Shown here: positions 6,812-13,468 of the stretch, one piece after another
Numbering within the stretch: the stretch's first letter is position 1
Layout of the letters: each line of letters opens with the position of its first letter
Source of the DNA: Nitrosospira sp.
GTDB lineage: Bacteria; Pseudomonadota; Gammaproteobacteria; Burkholderiales; Nitrosomonadaceae
DNA length: 16,602 nucleotides
Direction of reading: 5' to 3'
Assembly (NCBI GenBank): GCA_030453055.1
Contig: JAKDLC010000015.1
Location: 1-16,602 of the forward strand
Notes under the pieces: model-generated
The model's input: the letters and a program-made list of their open reading frames with translations, nothing else
The model's database searches: none
What the model was told of the DNA's origin: nothing
Position numbers and translations under genes: made by a program

Positions 6812-7124
6812 GTGCGATGAAAAGAATAGATCATCGCTAATCCCCACTCGTCTCCATCTCACCGTTCTCTGCCGGTTAGGTGGCGGGCTGATTGCTAATT
6901 TTCCCGCCGTGATCCGATCTACTTCCGTTGCCGAGCTCACTCGGCAACGGACGGGTGGATATTCGTGATTTTTAGTCCATTCGGTACGGCAACGCACAGA
7001 AAAAGACTGCGGCGGCGGTTATTCTTATATCTTGCGAGGTTTATTTTGTATGTACGCTCGTCCGAGGGAAGCGGAATTTGAATTTCTGTCTACCCAACCT
7101 TTAACCGTATTGGAGACGATTATC
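6812..7124. other. 313-base gap containing strong hairpins
   Basis: No gene is supported. An ATG at 7032 is in frame with the following lipoprotein, but it would put 31 non-signal residues before the lipoprotein leader, so I take this as leader DNA. The gap carries a 12-bp perfect palindrome (6924-6951) and a weaker 6-bp GGCGGG/CCCGCC stem with a 15-base loop (6882-6908). The ribosome site GGAG at 7112-7115 serves the lipoprotein. Confidence 0.6.
6924..6951. repeat. Perfect 12-bp inverted repeat with 4-base loop
   Basis: TCCGTTGCCGAG (6924-6935) pairs with CTCGGCAACGGA (6940-6951) around the loop CTCA. It lies 113 bases after the response regulator stop and 173 bases before the lipoprotein start. 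No T-run follows on either strand, so it is not a standard intrinsic terminator. It may be an mRNA-stabilising hairpin, a protein-binding palindrome, or a dispersed repeat. Confidence 0.85.
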
Positions 7125-7553
7125 ATGAACTACTTGAAACCTGTGTTCACCGCGGCAACGCTGGCGCTTGCGCTCACCGCTTGCGATTCGCCGAAGGAAG
7201 AACGCCGCGAAGAAGTGCTGGAAAACAAAGCGGATTTACTGGAACAAGCGCGGGAAAACAAGGCGGCTATAGTGGACCAAAAGGCGGAAAACAAGGCGGC
7301 TATAGTGGACCAGGCGCAGGAAAACAGAGCGGCCATAATAGACCAAAAGCTGGAAAACAAGGCGGATCTATTGGAAAACAAGGCCGATACCGTACGCGAA
7401 CGCGGAGAAGCAGTGGCTGACCGTATTGAAAGCCGAGATCCGGGGCTGGACAGCAAAGTTACCGACCGTGCCGCTGAGGCCGCACGCGATATATCCGAGT
7501 CTCGTGCCGACCGGTTGGAGGAAAAAGCCGATCGCATTCGGGAAGTGAAATAG
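7125..7553 (+). CDS. Small lipoprotein with hendecad coiled-coil repeats
   Basis: 142 residues from the ATG at 7125. The leader MNYLKPVFTAATLALALTAC ends in the lipobox LTAC (Cys20), giving a lipid-anchored periplasmic or outer-membrane protein. The mature part is highly charged (Glu, Lys, Ala, Asp). Residues 33-87 hold five 11-residue repeats of the form ENKAAIVDQ-x-x, then a 7-residue step to another ENKAD. The mixed 11/7 spacing is typical of a continuous alpha-helical coiled coil, as in rod-like envelope lipoproteins. The C-terminal part (about 88-142) is also helical and rich in Arg, Glu and Ala. The start is chosen because GGAG lies 9 bases upstream and the lipoprotein leader begins there; the upstream in-frame ATG (7032) would bury it. 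It faces the tyrosinase operon convergently. A structural or stress role is possible but not shown. Confidence 0.85.
   Translation: MNYLKPVFTAATLALALTACDSPKEERREEVLENKADLLEQARENKAAIVDQKAENKAAIVDQAQENRAAIIDQKLENKADLLENKADTVRERGEAVADRIESRDPGLDSKVTDRAAEAARDISESRADRLEEKADRIREVK
7221..7394 (+). repeat. 33-bp tandem repeats coding for hendecads
   Basis: GAAAAC opens each unit at 7221, 7254, 7287, 7320 and 7353, exactly 33 bp apart. A final unit starts at 7374, only 21 bp later. Units at 7254 and 7287 are nearly identical (GAAAACAAGGCGGCTATAGT core). The period is a multiple of three, so copy-number change keeps the frame. Confidence 0.93.
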
Positions 7554-7600: not shown

Positions 7601-8497
7601 TTAAGGCTCTGTCAGATCGGAGATCGTGTCATATTCGTAGTACCGCTTGTAATCGACCATTTCGCGTGGCGTAACCGTATCCTCAAAGACGCTGTAAAGC
7701 GCATCATCGATCCGGTGAAACTGGAGCGTATCCGGCGCAGTCATATCCGGCTGATAGGCCGAATTCGGGTGTTCTTCCTGCCATGCGGCCCAGATACGAT
7801 CCACATTGCAATGGTGCAGAAAGAAGACCGGGTCGTTCGGTGATGATGACAAAGACATGTCACCGCCAACCCAGACATGTACATTGTTGTGAATGCGTTC
7901 TCTTCCAATCCATCCTTCTACATGATTTCTCACCCCGTCAGACGAAAACGAATCGAACGGGGGTGAGTCATAAGCTGTCTGGTTGCGTATGACCGTACGC
8001 ACCCCATCTCGCGTAGGCAGCCTTCCTCCCTGCCCGAGAGCACGTTCCAGCGGCCGATCCACTATCTGCAAGTCGCCCGTGCTCAGGCTCATTTCCAGAC
8101 GGACCCGCCAGTCCGCACCGGCAAACTGACCGAGGTTTGCATTGCTCCAGACCGGGGATGTGACCGGGTCAGGCAATTCCGCGTCGGCGTTCCAATCCCA
8201 GTATGGAATTCTGAAGTTCGTATCATCGACCGCCTGCCGCAGGAAGCCTTCCAGGGTGATCAGAAAGTACCGGTGCCAGGGCAGGAATGCCGGACCGGAG
8301 TGCGCCGCATTGCGATCGCTTTGGTCGGGTGGGGTCATCATCATCATCGACTGGTGATGCCAGAAGACGAACATGTCATACATCGACAAATCGTCCCGGC
8401 CCGGCCACGGAAACTGGGCCGGGTCTTTCAGCCGCTTTACTCCATCGATGAATGTCTGCGCAGCGGCGGCGTCGGTGCGAAAATTACGGCGGATCAT
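7601..8497 (-). CDS. Tyrosinase (type-3 dicopper monooxygenase/oxidase)
   Basis: 298 residues. The enzyme family oxidises monophenols and o-diphenols to quinones with O2 at a dicopper site. CuA ligands: His47 or His48 (FWHHQSM), His66 and His75 (HSGPAFLPWHRYF). CuB ligands: His203 and His207 (HNNVHVWVGG) and His229 (DPVFFLHHCNVDRIW). Glu194, nine residues before His203, and Asn204 right after it match the Glu/Asn pair that holds the proton-accepting water in Bacillus megaterium tyrosinase, suggesting monophenolase ability. There is no signal peptide. A Met-rich patch (SMMMM, 50-54) follows the first His pair. Its ATG overlaps the stop of the upstream caddie gene as ATGA, implying translational coupling. 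The substrate is unknown; o-aminophenol oxidase/nitrosating relatives such as NspF or GriF are alternatives. Confidence 0.93.
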   Translation of the reverse strand: MIRRNFRTDAAAAQTFIDGVKRLKDPAQFPWPGRDDLSMYDMFVFWHHQSMMMMTPPDQSDRNAAHSGPAFLPWHRYFLITLEGFLRQAVDDTNFRIPYWDWNADAELPDPVTSPVWSNANLGQFAGADWRVRLEMSLSTGDLQIVDRPLERALGQGGRLPTRDGVRTVIRNQTAYDSPPFDSFSSDGVRNHVEGWIGRERIHNNVHVWVGGDMSLSSSPNDPVFFLHHCNVDRIWAAWQEEHPNSAYQPDMTAPDTLQFHRIDDALYSVFEDTVTPREMVDYKRYYEYDTISDLTEP

Positions 8498-8958
8498 GAG
8501 TGCCCCCCCTCGTGGCTATTATGGTCATGATCATGACCGGCGCCCGGATCGGAAGCAGAGAACGCATCCGGGTAAGCATTCATGACTTCTTTCATCAGAT
8601 CGACAGCCGAGGAGTACGTTACGAATGGCGTGGCATGCGTGTACACTTGCCCGTCCTTGTCAACGGAAAGGTGCATGCCGGCCGGTTTTCCATCCACCTC
8701 GATGCGATAGGTAGTGATGATCTTGATGTCATGTCCCTTGTGCGTGAGCTGGCGCACGCTCGTTGCTCCATGTTTGTCGTGGGGCTCGATATACGTCGGG
8801 AATTTTGCTTTTACCCAGTCCGGGTGGGCTTGCGCGCCTCCCGTTGGCGAATACCGGGCGAGCACAGAGATATCCGGGTTTTTGATCGGCTCATTTGATT
8901 CCTTCGGAGCCGCTTTCGGCTCCTTGCTCCCGGGACCGGGAGCGTTCTTTTTTGCCAT
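8494..8958 (-). CDS. MelC1-like tyrosinase cofactor ('caddie') protein, His-tailed
   Basis: 154 residues, first gene of the tyrosinase operon. In Streptomyces, MelC1 binds apo-tyrosinase, delivers copper and shields the active site. Here residues ~73-135 (KGHDIKI, EVDGKPAGMHLSVDKDG, SSAVDLMKEV) match the MelC1 layout: a beta strand, I/V-DG-P-HL hairpin, acidic-Gly turn, then an alpha helix. The N-terminal ~25 residues are Lys/Pro-rich and low in complexity. The C-terminus (141-154) is GHDHDHNSHEGGHS, a likely copper-binding tail. No Sec or Tat signal is seen, unlike MelC1, so the pair may act in the cytoplasm. A strong ribosome site GGAGG lies 7 bases before the ATG. The stop overlaps the tyrosinase ATG. 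The family call rests on context plus a modest pattern match. Confidence 0.72.
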   Translation of the reverse strand: MAKKNAPGPGSKEPKAAPKESNEPIKNPDISVLARYSPTGGAQAHPDWVKAKFPTYIEPHDKHGATSVRQLTHKGHDIKIITTYRIEVDGKPAGMHLSVDKDGQVYTHATPFVTYSSAVDLMKEVMNAYPDAFSASDPGAGHDHDHNSHEGGHS

Positions 8959-8981
8959 AATGGGTCCTCCGTAAAAAAATC

Positions 8982-9007
8982 GTCGGGTTACGCTGCGCTA
9001 AGCCGGC
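8982..9007. repeat. REP-like imperfect palindrome
   Basis: TCGGGTTA-CGCTGCGC-TAAGCCGGC forms an 8-9 bp stem with one mismatch and a GCGC-type loop. It resembles the common dispersed repeat built on CGGGTTACGCTGCGCTAACCCG found between genes in many proteobacteria. It lies in the leader of the caddie-tyrosinase operon. Confidence 0.5.
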
Positions 9008-9029
9008 ATACGCCTGCTACGCCTGCTGG

Positions 9030-9050
9030 ATTCCGGGTCAAGCCCGGAAT
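9030..9050. repeat. REP-like palindrome (ATTCCGGG/CCCGGAAT)
   Basis: ATTCCGGG (9030-9037) pairs with CCCGGAAT (9043-9050) around TCAAG, flanked by CTGG and GACG. This is the familiar TTCCGGG..CCCGGAATGACG element dispersed through many proteobacterial genomes. It lies next to the other REP-like palindrome in the operon leader. Confidence 0.65.
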
Positions 9051-9116
9051 GACGATATTCATAGTCCCTTCTCGCCGCATGAATAATCACGCGCTACTCC
9101 TCCCACATTTTTATTA

Positions 9117-9149
9117 TTTATAGCTCATGGAACAGAAAAGACAAGTATT
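9117..9149 (-). promoter_or_regulatory. Candidate promoter of the caddie-tyrosinase operon
   Basis: On the minus strand TTGTCT (9144-9139) is separated by 16 bases from TATAAA (9122-9117), a fair sigma-70 promoter. The 33-bp block matches a block at 12204-12236 at 27 of 33 positions without gaps. A start near 9110 would give a leader of about 150 bases that includes both REP-like hairpins. Confidence 0.55.
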
Positions 9150-9172
9150 TGTATCGCGACGTGCGCGTCAAT

Positions 9173-9592
9173 TTATGAAATATCCGGGTTAGATGTAACA
9201 ATCGCTTCGGTGGCGTCTTGCAGCGCGACGATCGCGGCGGGAATTCCCGCCGCGTTGCCGGAATAAACCGCGCCGCCAAAGAGAATCAGCGCGGAGGCGA
9301 GGTCAAGCGCCTGCTTGAATTTTTCGATATGCTTCACCGCCGACTTTGCGCTCTCGATGCCGGACTGCAAGCGCGCTAGCGGAGTCTGGCTATCCGTCAG
9401 GACCAGCCCTATCGCGCCGGTATATAGGCTGGATGCGATGTTCAGAAGGGTGATTTGCTGATCATCGAGCTTATCCCACTGGGATTGGCTCAAGCTGGCT
9501 CGATTTTTGATGCGCCACTCTCCGAGCACAATTGCCGCATCGCGGAACTGGTCGCCCAGTTTGAAAGCATCATCCGGCGTAAGTTTTTCCAT
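9173..9592 (-). CDS. Small protein of unknown function, partner of the lipoprotein gene
   Basis: 139 residues with no signal peptide. The sequence is helical and amphipathic; a more hydrophobic stretch near residues 95-120 (LASALILFGGAVYSG, AAGIPAAIVAL) could pack against a membrane or form a helical hairpin. No family was recognised. It lies 18 bases after the lipoprotein gene on the same strand. A good ribosome site (AGGGGA, about 6 bases before the ATG) supports the start. The spacing suggests that the two products work together, for example as a periplasmic lipoprotein and an associated subunit, but nothing in the sequence shows the function. Confidence 0.8.
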   Translation of the reverse strand: MEKLTPDDAFKLGDQFRDAAIVLGEWRIKNRASLSQSQWDKLDDQQITLLNIASSLYTGAIGLVLTDSQTPLARLQSGIESAKSAVKHIEKFKQALDLASALILFGGAVYSGNAAGIPAAIVALQDATEAIVTSNPDIS

Positions 9593-9610
9593 AACGTCCC
9601 CTATACCCTT

Positions 9611-10480
9611 TCACGGTGAAGCATCGCGCAGGTTCTGGTAAGCAGCCCGAAGCTCATCGATATATGGCTTGAGTCGCCGCCCGAATTCATCGTTGCCGAT
9701 CCTATCCCGATGATCATAAAGATATTGGTGCCCTGCGGCGATCTTCTCCAGCACGGCATCGTAACTCTGAGCCGCCCGGATACGGCTGTCAATCCGCCCC
9801 ATCGCTTCCGCCCTGGCTTCTTTTGCCAGCGCCATCGCTACCGGCTCGGCAGGGTTGTCCGGCGCGAACATAAAGTTGTCGTAGTACCTCCCCACCATTA
9901 CGGCTTCGACCCGCAGGTCGGCGGCAATGCCGTTCCTCACAATCTTGCGGATGGCCTCGATCACATCCTGAAGCGGCTGGTTGCCCTCCTGAATCAGCTC
10001 TTTCATTTCATGCCGCCGATATAGGCTGGTGACTGTGCGGGCAAGCAGCGTCGATAGCGCGCCGACGGCTTGTTTCTCGTTCCTGTCGAGCAACGTGGCC
10101 TCGTTGAGGCTGTCACTGACATCTTTAAGCGAGCTGTCGAAAATTCGGGTATCGCCGGAAGCAAGACCTTCGAGGCCCCGCATGTAATCGATCAACGTTT
10201 CCCGGAGTACATCCAGACTGGCGCGTTGCGCCTCCCGGCGTATTTTTATCGCTTCCAGTTCGCCATGGAATTTCGGCGGCTGATACTGCTTGCGCCGATC
10301 GAGCGCGCCGATATAGTCTTCAGTGAGCGCTTCGTAGCTGGCTGCATTCGAAGAAATCGACGCAAATGTCTTGACTTCTTTGAAACTGGCGCATCCGGAT
10401 AGACCAGCCACCAGGAAGACCACGGTTAACGCCAGCCGGAATCGTCCGGTCATGCCTGTTGGCCGGGGAGTAGGAGTCAT
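9611..10480 (-). CDS. Helical lipoprotein of unknown function
   Basis: 289 residues. The leader ends in the lipobox LSGC (Cys30 from the ATG at 10480; Cys21 from an alternative ATG at 10453), so the mature protein is lipid-anchored. The rest is predominantly alpha-helical with many Glu, Arg, Ala and Leu, a coiled-coil-like central region (about 50-180) and a C-terminal helix pair ending YIDELRAAYQNL. No enzymatic motif was seen and no named family was recognised. I prefer the 10480 start because GGGA lies about 8 bases upstream, though the longer leader (MTPTPRPTG) is atypical and 10453 remains possible. It is the first gene of a two-gene operon. Confidence 0.85.
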   Translation of the reverse strand: MTPTPRPTGMTGRFRLALTVVFLVAGLSGCASFKEVKTFASISSNAASYEALTEDYIGALDRRKQYQPPKFHGELEAIKIRREAQRASLDVLRETLIDYMRGLEGLASGDTRIFDSSLKDVSDSLNEATLLDRNEKQAVGALSTLLARTVTSLYRRHEMKELIQEGNQPLQDVIEAIRKIVRNGIAADLRVEAVMVGRYYDNFMFAPDNPAEPVAMALAKEARAEAMGRIDSRIRAAQSYDAVLEKIAAGHQYLYDHRDRIGNDEFGRRLKPYIDELRAAYQNLRDASP

Positions 10481-10636
10481 GTTTTATTCCCGTAGCGCCA
10501 AGTTACGAGCCGGCTGCTTGCCGATGGCCTATCCGCTACGCTGCAAACTACGCGGGATGCAAAGTGGGTAGACCCGCTTATGACCTCCAATTCTAACCGG
10601 GAAACAATAGCCTTAACGTATAGGCCTCGATATATC

Positions 10637-12100
10637 TCACCTCAGGGCAGTGTTTTTTCTTCTACTCGCAAAACCCAGAAGTGCCAGCCCGGCCAGCATC
10701 AGCGCGTAAGTATGGGGTTCTGGGACTACGCCCAGAGCAAACGGCGACAAGTTATCGGTAGAGGCCGTGAATGTGTTATTCGAGGCATTAAAGCTACCGC
10801 CCAAGTCTTCCCAAGCCCCGTTTGTCCAGTGGTAGATTCGTAGTTGATCAGTGTCAATGGCTGATGATAGCAACGTGGGATCGAGGCCAAATGTGAGCCG
10901 AAGTGGACCGTTGAAGCTGCCGCTGTAATCGAGGTCCCACAACGGAGTCAATCCGTCGATTGCCCCAAAGGTTGGTTCGCCGAACTCTCCCATATTTACG
11001 AATGCAGAGATACCCGCGGAATCTTCTAATGCATAATCAATGAAGAAAGTACCTGGGTCATGAGTTCCGCTAAAATTATAATCGATCCCGCCCGCAGCTG
11101 TCGCGCCACCGCCAATGCTTCCTGTATTTGTGTCACTGTCGACCCTATACCCCGTGAGAATCGACAAGGCAACGTCAAAAGTTTTTGACTGCATGGAATC
11201 GAGTGTTCCGAGGTCGAAACGCTGGGCCCCGGCCAACCAGAGCTCGTTCGGCGCAAAACTGTCAACATTGCTCAGAGAATTGGCTTCCACTGAAAGGTGC
11301 GTTCCTACCGAAGGCTTACCGGTTAAGTGATCATCAGTTCCCTGAATTCCATACCGCCCGATTTCGAATGCGCTCGGCGCTATCTTGCTGTGAAATCCGA
11401 TGTAGTCAAGCTGGGGGAATACAGGAAATTCGGGAATTCCAGGAAGAGATAGTTCGAAGTGCCCGCTTTGCGTAACGTCGTAACGGTAGTCACTCATCAC
11501 ACCGTTATAATCACGATTATCGTAGACGCCGGATTGGGAGTTCAAACCATGCAGAAACTGAAAAAACTGCAAATCTTCAATTGGAGCGGCGGATATATTC
11601 TGGAAGGTATAGGAATGCATCAAAACATAGCGGTTAGATAGCAACGAGGAGCCAGTGGCGCTTGAGGCGGCAGCGGTTCCCATTGCTATTCCAGTGACCG
11701 TATCGACAACTTCCAGATTCTGGATAACCTTCAGCGTACCGTTGGAGATTACCGAACTCGCCGTTGGTAGGCCGGAGCTATTGGGTATACCAAGGGTCAT
11801 TGGTTGCACAACGGAAAAATCAGAATTTGTTGTCCAATCCGGAAAGACAAAATCAGGCTCCAGCCAAGTGGGCGCTTTACCCTGATAACCGATAGCGCCT
11901 GCCCATTCACCGGAAAGGTATTCGCGGCCTTCAAAACCGGGGGTGAGATCGCCGAGGTAGTCGGAAAATCCAAAGTTGCTAACGTCGATCTCCCAATCCG
12001 GCGATTGAATTAGCGTTACTTGCGCATGAGCGCCGAACGAAAGACAGGCGGTGATTACAGCGGTAACCAATTGACAGGCCTTAAAAGCTTGAAATTTCAT
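10637..12100 (-). CDS. Exported PEP-CTERM sorting-domain protein
   Basis: 487 residues. An N-terminal Sec signal (residues 1-26, ending SFGAHA) sends it out of the cytoplasm. The body is Ser/Gly/Asn/Thr-rich, beta-type sequence without a recognised catalytic motif; near residues 340-450 it contains NFSGTHDPGTFF and YHWTNGAWEDLGG. The C-terminus is a complete PEP-CTERM tag: VPEP at 459-462, a hydrophobic helix (YALMLAGLALLGFA) and the basic end SRRK. Such tags are processed by exosortase (EpsH/XrtA) in bacteria that make exopolysaccharide, so the protein is probably a surface or extracellular-matrix component. GGGAG lies 6 bases before the ATG. A promoter-like block lies about 105 bases upstream. 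No exosortase is encoded in this window. Confidence 0.9.
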   Translation of the reverse strand: MKFQAFKACQLVTAVITACLSFGAHAQVTLIQSPDWEIDVSNFGFSDYLGDLTPGFEGREYLSGEWAGAIGYQGKAPTWLEPDFVFPDWTTNSDFSVVQPMTLGIPNSSGLPTASSVISNGTLKVIQNLEVVDTVTGIAMGTAAASSATGSSLLSNRYVLMHSYTFQNISAAPIEDLQFFQFLHGLNSQSGVYDNRDYNGVMSDYRYDVTQSGHFELSLPGIPEFPVFPQLDYIGFHSKIAPSAFEIGRYGIQGTDDHLTGKPSVGTHLSVEANSLSNVDSFAPNELWLAGAQRFDLGTLDSMQSKTFDVALSILTGYRVDSDTNTGSIGGGATAAGGIDYNFSGTHDPGTFFIDYALEDSAGISAFVNMGEFGEPTFGAIDGLTPLWDLDYSGSFNGPLRLTFGLDPTLLSSAIDTDQLRIYHWTNGAWEDLGGSFNASNNTFTASTDNLSPFALGVVPEPHTYALMLAGLALLGFASRRKNTALR

Positions 12101-12203
12101 TTTTTTCTCCCGAACGGTTGATTCTGGCTACAGCAACAGGCTGAACGACCTTACGAACTCCCCCATTTACCAACCGGGCTACGCACCATCGTTCCCCTTT
12201 TCC

Positions 12204-12236
12204 TTTATAGTTCAGGAAACGTAAAAAACAAGTATT
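12204..12236 (-). promoter_or_regulatory. Candidate promoter of the PEP-CTERM gene
   Basis: Minus strand TTGTTT (12231-12226), 16-base spacer, TATAAA (12209-12204). The block is 27/33 identical to the one ahead of the tyrosinase operon. Predicted leader about 97 bases. It lies in the 186-base space shared with the divergent esterase-domain gene. Confidence 0.55.
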
Positions 12237-12286
12237 CTTGGATTTTTTTTGCGATCGGGATTATTTCGGGGGAGAAATTCATCGTT

Positions 12287-13468
12287 ATGAGAATAGATAT
12301 TCTCGTCATTCTGGCCGCGGGCTTCTTTGCGGGCGCCCCTCATATCACCAGTCACGCCGCCGACTTCAACCTGAGCTATATCGGCCAGCAGATCGTACCC
12401 AATAAAACACGCTTCGACGGTACGACCGTCGGTGGCTTGTCCTCACTGGATTACAACCCGCGCACCGGCCGTTACCTGGCGGTCAGTGACGACCGGAGCA
12501 AAACCAATCCGGCGCGTTTTTATGAATTATCCCTGGATCTTGCCCAATTTGAGCGCTCTTCCGAGCCCGGCATGGCCGGCGTGACTTTCCACGCGGTGAC
12601 CACCATCCAGCAACCCGGCGGAGGTGCGTTCGCAAGCAATTCCGTGGACCCGGAAGGCATGCGCTTCGACGCCGCCCGTAACAAGATTTACTGGAGCAAC
12701 GAAGGCCAGCGCAGCATGTTGGGTTTTCAGAATCCGACCGTGCGGGAAATGAATCCTGACGGCAGCCATAGCCGCGATTTCGCGGTACCCGTTCGTTACC
12801 ACCCGAGGGGCTCCAATATCGGGATATTTCCGGGCGATAGAGGCATCTACAACAATCTGGCGTTCGAGAGCCTGGCGATATCGGTTGACGGCAACACTTT
12901 GTATACCGCCACCGAAAACGGCTTGATCCAGGATACGCCGCCCGCCAACGTGCTCACGGGCTCCCGCACGCGCATTCTGTCCTTCGACATCGAGAGCGGA
13001 AAGCCCCGCTCCGAATACATTTACGAGGTCGGCCCCGTTGTCTTCGCCCCGCCCTCAATAGGCGGTTTTGCCACCAATGGGCTGACCGACTTCATCGCCA
13101 TCGGAGACCGCCAGTTCATCACGATCGAGCGCTCTTTCACGTTTGGCGCAGACACACCCGGCAACATCGCGACCGGCTACACCGTACGGCTATATTACGC
13201 GGATGCGCGAGGCGCCACCGATATCTCGGAGATGGGGTCGATTGCGGGCGAGAGCATCCAGCCGGTGACCAAAACGCTGCTACTGGATTTGTCGGACCTG
13301 AAAAATACCGATGGCTCCACGCTTTCGGTGGGCAACATCGAAGGCATCACCCTTGGCCCGATCTTCAATGGCAAACGCACTCTCGTGCTGGTTGCCGACA
13401 ACAACTTCAGCAGAAAGCAGTTCACCCAGTTCGTGGCGCTGGAAATCAGTTCCGATTTGGGGCAATAG
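12287..13468 (+). CDS. Secreted phytase-like esterase-domain protein
   Basis: 393 residues with a signal peptide ending near residue 25 (TSHAA). The mature part fits the 'esterase-like activity of phytase' domain (PF13449), a beta-propeller. It shows GGLSSLDYNPRTG, YLAVSDDR, DPEGMRFD, FESLAISVDGNTLYTATENG and NIEGITLGP, which mark acidic, probably Ca-binding loops. These proteins are secreted or periplasmic and are thought to act on phosphate or other esters; the activity here is unproven. It diverges from the PEP-CTERM gene. A GGGGGAG ribosome site lies about 12 bases before the ATG, a long spacing. No better in-frame start was seen. Confidence 0.88.
   Translation: MRIDILVILAAGFFAGAPHITSHAADFNLSYIGQQIVPNKTRFDGTTVGGLSSLDYNPRTGRYLAVSDDRSKTNPARFYELSLDLAQFERSSEPGMAGVTFHAVTTIQQPGGGAFASNSVDPEGMRFDAARNKIYWSNEGQRSMLGFQNPTVREMNPDGSHSRDFAVPVRYHPRGSNIGIFPGDRGIYNNLAFESLAISVDGNTLYTATENGLIQDTPPANVLTGSRTRILSFDIESGKPRSEYIYEVGPVVFAPPSIGGFATNGLTDFIAIGDRQFITIERSFTFGADTPGNIATGYTVRLYYADARGATDISEMGSIAGESIQPVTKTLLLDLSDLKNTDGSTLSVGNIEGITLGPIFNGKRTLVLVADNNFSRKQFTQFVALEISSDLGQ

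Follow-up and report, generated by a model that had tools for sequence, protein, structure and literature searches.

How is a tyrosinase supplied with copper, and where does it act, when neither the enzyme nor the caddie-like protein encoded directly before it carries an export leader? This question is raised by a two-gene operon on the minus strand of a 16,602-nucleotide Nitrosospira sp. sequence (contig JAKDLC010000015.1 of assembly GCA_030453055.1; hereafter the window), which is contig 44 of a 2.5-Mb assembly that is 80% complete. The operon comprises a gene for a leaderless, caddie-like candidate copper chaperone of 154 amino acids (aa) (8494–8958), with a Lys-rich N-terminal tail and a His-rich C-terminal tail, followed by a gene for a 298-aa tyrosinase, a type-3 copper oxidase (7601–8497). 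The stop codon of the former and the start codon of the latter overlap in ATGA (8494–8497), and a GGAGG ribosome-binding site is located 7 bases before the caddie ATG (8966–8970). Re-reading of the sequence confirmed the coordinates, strand and 4-base overlap given in an initial annotation of the locus. On balance, the operon seems to encode a cytosolic tyrosinase together with its own copper-loading caddie of the MelC1 fold, which would not be sacrificed in a suicide step, the enzyme probably serving as a protective phenol/catechol oxidase.

The 298-aa protein contains a tyrosinase domain (PF00264; 147.2 bits, compared to a Pfam cut-off of 22.6). All six copper-ligand positions are occupied, as stated in the initial annotation: His47, His66 and His75 at the CuA site and His203, His207 and His229 at the CuB site (regions encoded at 8273–8359 and 7811–7891, respectively). 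The Glu/Asn pair of monophenolases, also noted earlier, is intact. In an alignment of the window protein with 120 homologues listed out of 2901, the water-holding Glu194 (codon 7916–7918) is conserved in 120 of the 121 sequences, and Asn204, which lies within the CuB region directly after its first histidine (HisB1), in 119. Judged by these two residues, the enzyme would be a tyrosinase with monophenolase activity. Its closest named tyrosinase homologue among the matches listed is a protein from a Nitrosospira metagenome-assembled genome (MAG; 98% identity). A run of four Met residues (WHHQSMMMM; residues 51–54, 8336–8347) adjoins the first CuA ligand and might take part in copper entry.

Similar scores against PDB chains were obtained with Streptomyces MelC2 (1wx2_A; 175.3 bits) and the small tyrosinase of B. 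megaterium (3nm8_A; 170.5 bits), and therefore neither is clearly nearer to the window enzyme, which also scored below the cut-off of the MelC2 equivalog NF047834 of NCBIfam (196.3 compared to 450 bits). The likeness to B. megaterium tyrosinase pointed out earlier is thus no stronger than that to MelC2. The B. megaterium enzyme has no caddie according to a published table (PMC10526336). That the window tyrosinase likewise needs none does not follow, because this protein is no nearer to the B. megaterium enzyme than to MelC2.

The partner protein contains 12 His in its 154 residues, five of them within the last 19, and its His-rich tail spans residues 142–154 (8497–8535). A database search revealed 162 relatives, with no Pfam domain in any of the 120 that were listed. 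These 120, together with nine matches from the last search and three proteins of a paralogous type (type B, see below), form the set of 132 relatives used throughout; a tail with at least three His is present in 119 of them, and two have no tail His. Single-sequence and profile searches with the caddie against Pfam, NCBIfam and PDB sequences gave no link to MelC1, and the protein has no match to any Pfam family or PDB sequence. Similarly, the MelC1 family PF06236 had no match at the caddie locus in a search of its own genome with E-values up to 10, nor in 52 members of the caddie family.

The comparison of profiles and predicted folds gave a different result. The caddie core (residues 40–136) was modeled with AlphaFold from 72 more diverse sequences (predicted local distance difference test, pLDDT, 75), using an alignment that held no MelC1 sequence; a full-length prediction from 52 sequences (pLDDT 48) was not used. 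In a Foldseek search with the predicted core the first 14 hits were MelC1 chains, as were the first 20 rows after re-alignment of the hits with VIA-align, with modest scores in both cases. Comparison of the caddie profile with a segment of 1wx2_B by hhalign gave a score of 21.1, exceeding all 150 shuffles (maximum 18.6). These results support, at modest scores, the view that the caddie is a diverged protein with a predicted MelC1 fold. The initial description as MelC1-like, against which an unrelated fold would have counted, thus receives modest support from profile and predicted fold (the nearest being MelC1), although the likeness is invisible to sequence searches.

The hhalign register pairs caddie His96 (codon 8671–8673) with MelC1 His82, His108 (8635–8637) with His97, Ala109 (8632–8634) with the plug residue Tyr98, and Pro111 with Pro100. 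Analysis of the 132 relatives revealed His at the His82 place in 131 (the pattern recognized 130 and wrongly passed over one of the remaining two) and at the His97 place in all 132. MelC1 Met84 is not conserved (Ser98 at the aligned place of the caddie). The Tyr98 place is occupied by Ala in 124 relatives, Pro in six, Gly in one and Tyr in one. One Nitrospira relative carries SHYAP at the plug site, like the SHYDP of MelC1. At a Nitrospira locus (L041; 5878–7328), a caddie with Tyr at this place was observed beside a tyrosinase with Gly instead of Asn after HisB1, which could be a linked change seen at a single locus.

The Tyr98 of the Streptomyces caddie occupies the active-site pocket, and the binding of copper and O2 is followed by conversion of this residue to dopaquinone, a change linked to aggregation of the caddie and release of the enzyme (PMC6312201). 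Crystals containing a Y98F caddie nevertheless showed copper uptake and the oxy form (PMC6312201); the tyrosine hydroxyl is therefore unneeded for loading, but needed for the known mode of release. Since Tyr98 is absent, the caddies analyzed here should load copper, yet release the enzyme differently or not at all.

Neither protein has a visible leader, as had been claimed. The caddie ATG is preceded, at a distance of 14 codons, by an in-frame TAG (8998–9000), and the interval contains none of the start codons ATG, GTG and TTG, so that an N-terminal leader on the caddie is excluded; a start further upstream carrying a Tat (twin-arginine translocation) or Sec leader, which would have overturned the initial annotation, was looked for and none was seen. 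Within their first 40 residues, the caddie and the tyrosinase reach 11-residue Kyte-Doolittle means of at most 0.38 and 0.96, respectively, compared to 1.21 in the response regulator of the window and 2.2–2.9 in five of the window's proteins that are apparently exported. The corresponding maxima have a median of 0.21 (largest 1.70) over the 132 caddie relatives and of 0.6 (largest 1.82) over 120 tyrosinases. No Tat signal was seen in the caddie (its first 40 residues lack RRx[FLIVM], and its N-terminus is not hydrophobic). The N-terminus of the tyrosinase (MIRRNF) resembles a Tat string, with no hydrophobic stretch after it.

A pattern scan of named genomes showed that the tyrosinase gene lies next to, and 3′ of, the caddie gene at 24 of 24 loci, in Nitrosospira, Nitrosovibrio, Nitrosomonas, Methylobacter marinus, seven Pseudomonas, a Nitrospira MAG and an actinobacterial MAG. 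The partner gene thus appears as dedicated as had been suggested, and the enzyme does not belong with the caddie-less bacterial tyrosinases of the B. megaterium kind. With the tyrosinase start placed at MIR or MAIR, the two genes overlap by 4 bases at 12 loci and by 14 bases at seven, and are separated by gaps of 2–201 bases at five.

Two paralogous caddie types were distinguished, A (that of the window) and B, which are 37–43% identical over their matched part. In a sample of 61 genomes, type A or B was found in 17 of the 23 genomes of the genus (18 places, each with a tyrosinase match within approximately 1 kb) and in none of the 38 genomes of other genera. The distance matrices of caddies and tyrosinases are correlated (r = 0.97 for 27 pairs, a value reached in 0 of 1000 permutations), a correlation raised in part by the division between types A and B; the tyrosinase residues were read in 26 of the 27, L031 being outside the HisB pattern. 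Wider searches revealed the window alone among 369 genomes of its class, the actinobacterial locus alone among 200 genomes of its order, and three loci, including that of the query's own genome, among 245 genomes of the Nitrospira phylum. A tyrosinase above the cut-off is present in 23 of 23 genomes of the genus, compared to 49 of 102 other genomes of the family. Each of the 23 holds two to five tyrosinase-family matches, some being split hits of one gene.

A second pair is located on contig 440 of the same genome (L001; minus strand), with genes for an 87-aa caddie (2177–2440) and a 503-aa tyrosinase (664–2175). It resembles the window pair in being leaderless and differs in several respects: (i) the caddie matches MelC1 by sequence (best E-value 6e-5; 20.9 bits, where Pfam requires 27), (ii) it has no His tail, (iii) the Tyr98 place is occupied by Phe, as in 20 of 20 sequences of this type in the genus (17 sequences and three loci at which gene finding had overlooked the caddie), and (iv) the tyrosinase bears C-terminal PPC domains. 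Caddies of this type are a different case, because the residues corresponding to His82, Met84 and His97 are missing as well. The genus genomes also hold longer tyrosinase types (frames of approximately 480–600 aa) besides that of contig 440.

By analogy with MelC1, the window caddie would bind apo-tyrosinase, collect copper through its His-rich tail together with His96 and His108, and hand it over to the CuA/CuB site. The suicide step of Streptomyces, in which the loaded enzyme oxidizes Tyr98 to dopaquinone and the caddie aggregates, is impossible here for want of Tyr98; the caddie should therefore come off by simple dissociation or remain in place as a cap that can be removed. Since neither protein has a leader, the enzyme should act inside the cell, where it would oxidize phenols and catechols, most likely in a protective role similar to that of Streptomyces MelD2. 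The irreversible arrest of Nitrosospira multiformis by gallic acid, reported in PMC13056722, weighs against such protection. The host is presumably an ammonia oxidizer, a label that rests on kinship, because a search for the ammonia monooxygenase (AMO) family was negative for the 80%-complete assembly but equally so for the control genomes, and so is no evidence of absence.

Instead of departing, the caddie could act as a standing cap that loads copper, stays bound and silences the enzyme, to be displaced only by copper, pH, lysis or a partner, with Phe112 or the His tail filling the pocket. While the release tyrosine is missing in 131 of the 132 relatives, Phe112 is kept in 121 and might fill the active-site pocket in its place. 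A pocket Phe has precedents in the V. spinosum and fungal enzymes, where it is provided by a C-terminal extension (removed by proteolysis in V. spinosum), and a free quinone maker in the cytosol would presumably cost the cell. However, Phe112 is not conserved in type B, in which Asn is mostly found, and we consider such a cap unlikely, if worth keeping in view. That the partner is a delivery or storage protein for metal or substrate, sharing a small beta-sheet/helix fold with MelC1 by chance, would be in line with the weak sequence link, the long His/Lys-rich tails and the modest fold scores. Against this, the fold search places MelC1 chains ahead of other PDB chains, the invariant His108 and Pro111 align with MelC1 His97 and Pro100, and the gene order is that of melC1-melC2, which makes a role other than that of a chaperone improbable.

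The location and activity of the enzyme were considered in the same manner. The pair could be exported without a leader of its own by hitch-hiking on a third protein. The Tat-like RRNF of the tyrosinase N-terminus points in this direction, as does the contig-440 paralogue, which bears PPC domains, often found on exported proteins. However, no hydrophobic stretch is present in either protein, and Streptomyces pairs without Tat export (melD, griE/F) are intracellular; we consider export very improbable. Finally, the initial annotation had raised the option of nitrosophenol formation by an o-aminophenol oxidase. NspE/NspF is such an oxidase pair with a helper gene, like GriE/GriF. A weak match to the NCBIfam BagH/FevF family (110.4 bits compared to a cut-off of 630) and the fact that GriF is likewise an intracellular type-3 copper enzyme with a helper gene favor this option. 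The activity selector, i.e. the fourth residue after the first CuA His, is Asn in GriF and Ile in a tyrosinase, and a published swap at this place decides nitroso-forming activity (PMC12184298). In the window enzyme it is Met51 (encoded within the CuA region), all 121 aligned sequences have Met there, and Thr55 replaces the conserved Tyr. Because of Met51 the enzyme looks like a tyrosinase rather than an o-aminophenol oxidase, and the Met in place of Asn leaves the nitrosophenol role with hardly any credence.

Among known systems, the proposed cytosolic tyrosinase loaded by its own caddie has its closest counterpart in Streptomyces melD1/melD2, an intracellular polyphenol oxidase operon whose product MelD2 protects against several phenolics (PMC2758597). 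As in the window, the helper gene lies 5′ of the oxidase gene and overlaps it (by 17 bases in melD), the oxidase is not exported (a prediction in the case of the window enzyme), and the helper lacks a Tat motif in S. coelicolor, S. griseus and S. avermitilis; melD is also paralogous to exported pairs (PMC2758597). The melD pair differs in being actinobacterial, in having a demonstrated phenotype, in the signal peptide predicted by TatP (without a Tat motif) for two of the three MelD1 proteins, with both features in S. scabies, and in the recovery of MelD2 mainly from the membrane fraction (PMC2758597). With melC1/melC2 and ORF378/TyrC of Streptomyces (PMC6312201), the window pair shares gene order, predicted caddie fold, the His82 and His97 places, the tyrosinase fold and six ligands. 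Compared to MelC1, the window caddie has no Tat leader, carries Ala instead of Tyr98 and Ser instead of Met84, and has gained a His tail and an N-terminal extension.

The DNA around the operon was also inspected. A gene for a 245-aa protein (U245) lies directly upstream of the caddie gene in 10 of the 11 other type-A genomes, and the eleventh has in its place a shorter gene of the U130 type with the same C-terminal domain. Both genes are absent from the window, where the corresponding gap spans 8959–9172; no remnant of U245 was seen in the window, nor did the 80%-complete assembly yield a match to it. The protein has no Pfam match, and its C-terminal part matches the U130 domain. Of 45 copies, counted after manual merging of split hits, only 14 are found at 3 kb or less from a tyrosinase; U245 therefore represents a broader family of paralogues and was not included in the proposed mechanism. 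The gap where it would sit contains a palindromic intergenic repeat, ATTCCGGGTCAAGCCCGGAAT (9026–9054), which looks like a dispersed repeat element. The genes at 9173–13468 continue the order phytase-like, 289-aa lipoprotein-like, 139-aa protein, caddie, tyrosinase, which is kept, with the addition of U245, in L024, L027 and L028; in the window a PEP-CTERM protein (10637–12100) is encoded between the phytase-like and 289-aa lipoprotein-like genes. On the other side of the operon, a 173-aa lipoprotein-like protein with repeated ENKAAIVDQ-type units is encoded at 7032–7553, and 8 of the 24 loci carry related genes no farther than approximately 4 kb from the tyrosinase. Scanning for promoters and terminators yielded three sites (1.5 in shuffles) and four sites (2.3), respectively, and neither was used as evidence.

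Intracellular pairs of helper and oxidase are already known from Streptomyces melD; what is new here is a diverged, unnamed caddie family that lacks the plug tyrosine. In the open literature (most subscription papers being outside the scope of the search), no report of Tyr98-less caddies and no dedicated study of Nitrosospira or Nitrosomonas tyrosinases were found; a copper-protein survey of 119 beta-proteobacteria counts the tyrosinase family PF00264 (PMC6769254). These natural proteins, which keep the copper histidines without Tyr98, allow loading and release to be tested apart, and offer a natural test of whether the tyrosine sacrificed by the Streptomyces caddie is needed when the enzyme is switched on.

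It is conceivable, and we propose it tentatively, that widespread natural caddies lacking Tyr98 load copper into tyrosinases of the cytosol and, rather than being destroyed, are used again or retained as a reversible cap. On this tentative view, the three paralogous caddie types of Nitrosospira (A, B and C), all without the tyrosine (Ala, Pro and Phe), would suggest selection for a non-suicide, copper-gated phenol oxidase, possibly directed against plant phenolic nitrification inhibitors. Several plant nitrification inhibitors are phenols, including methyl 3-(4-hydroxyphenyl)propionate (MHPP) and gallic, caffeic and vanillic acids. If these enzymes do act on phenolics, they would bear on the response of ammonia oxidizers to the nitrification inhibitors of plants.
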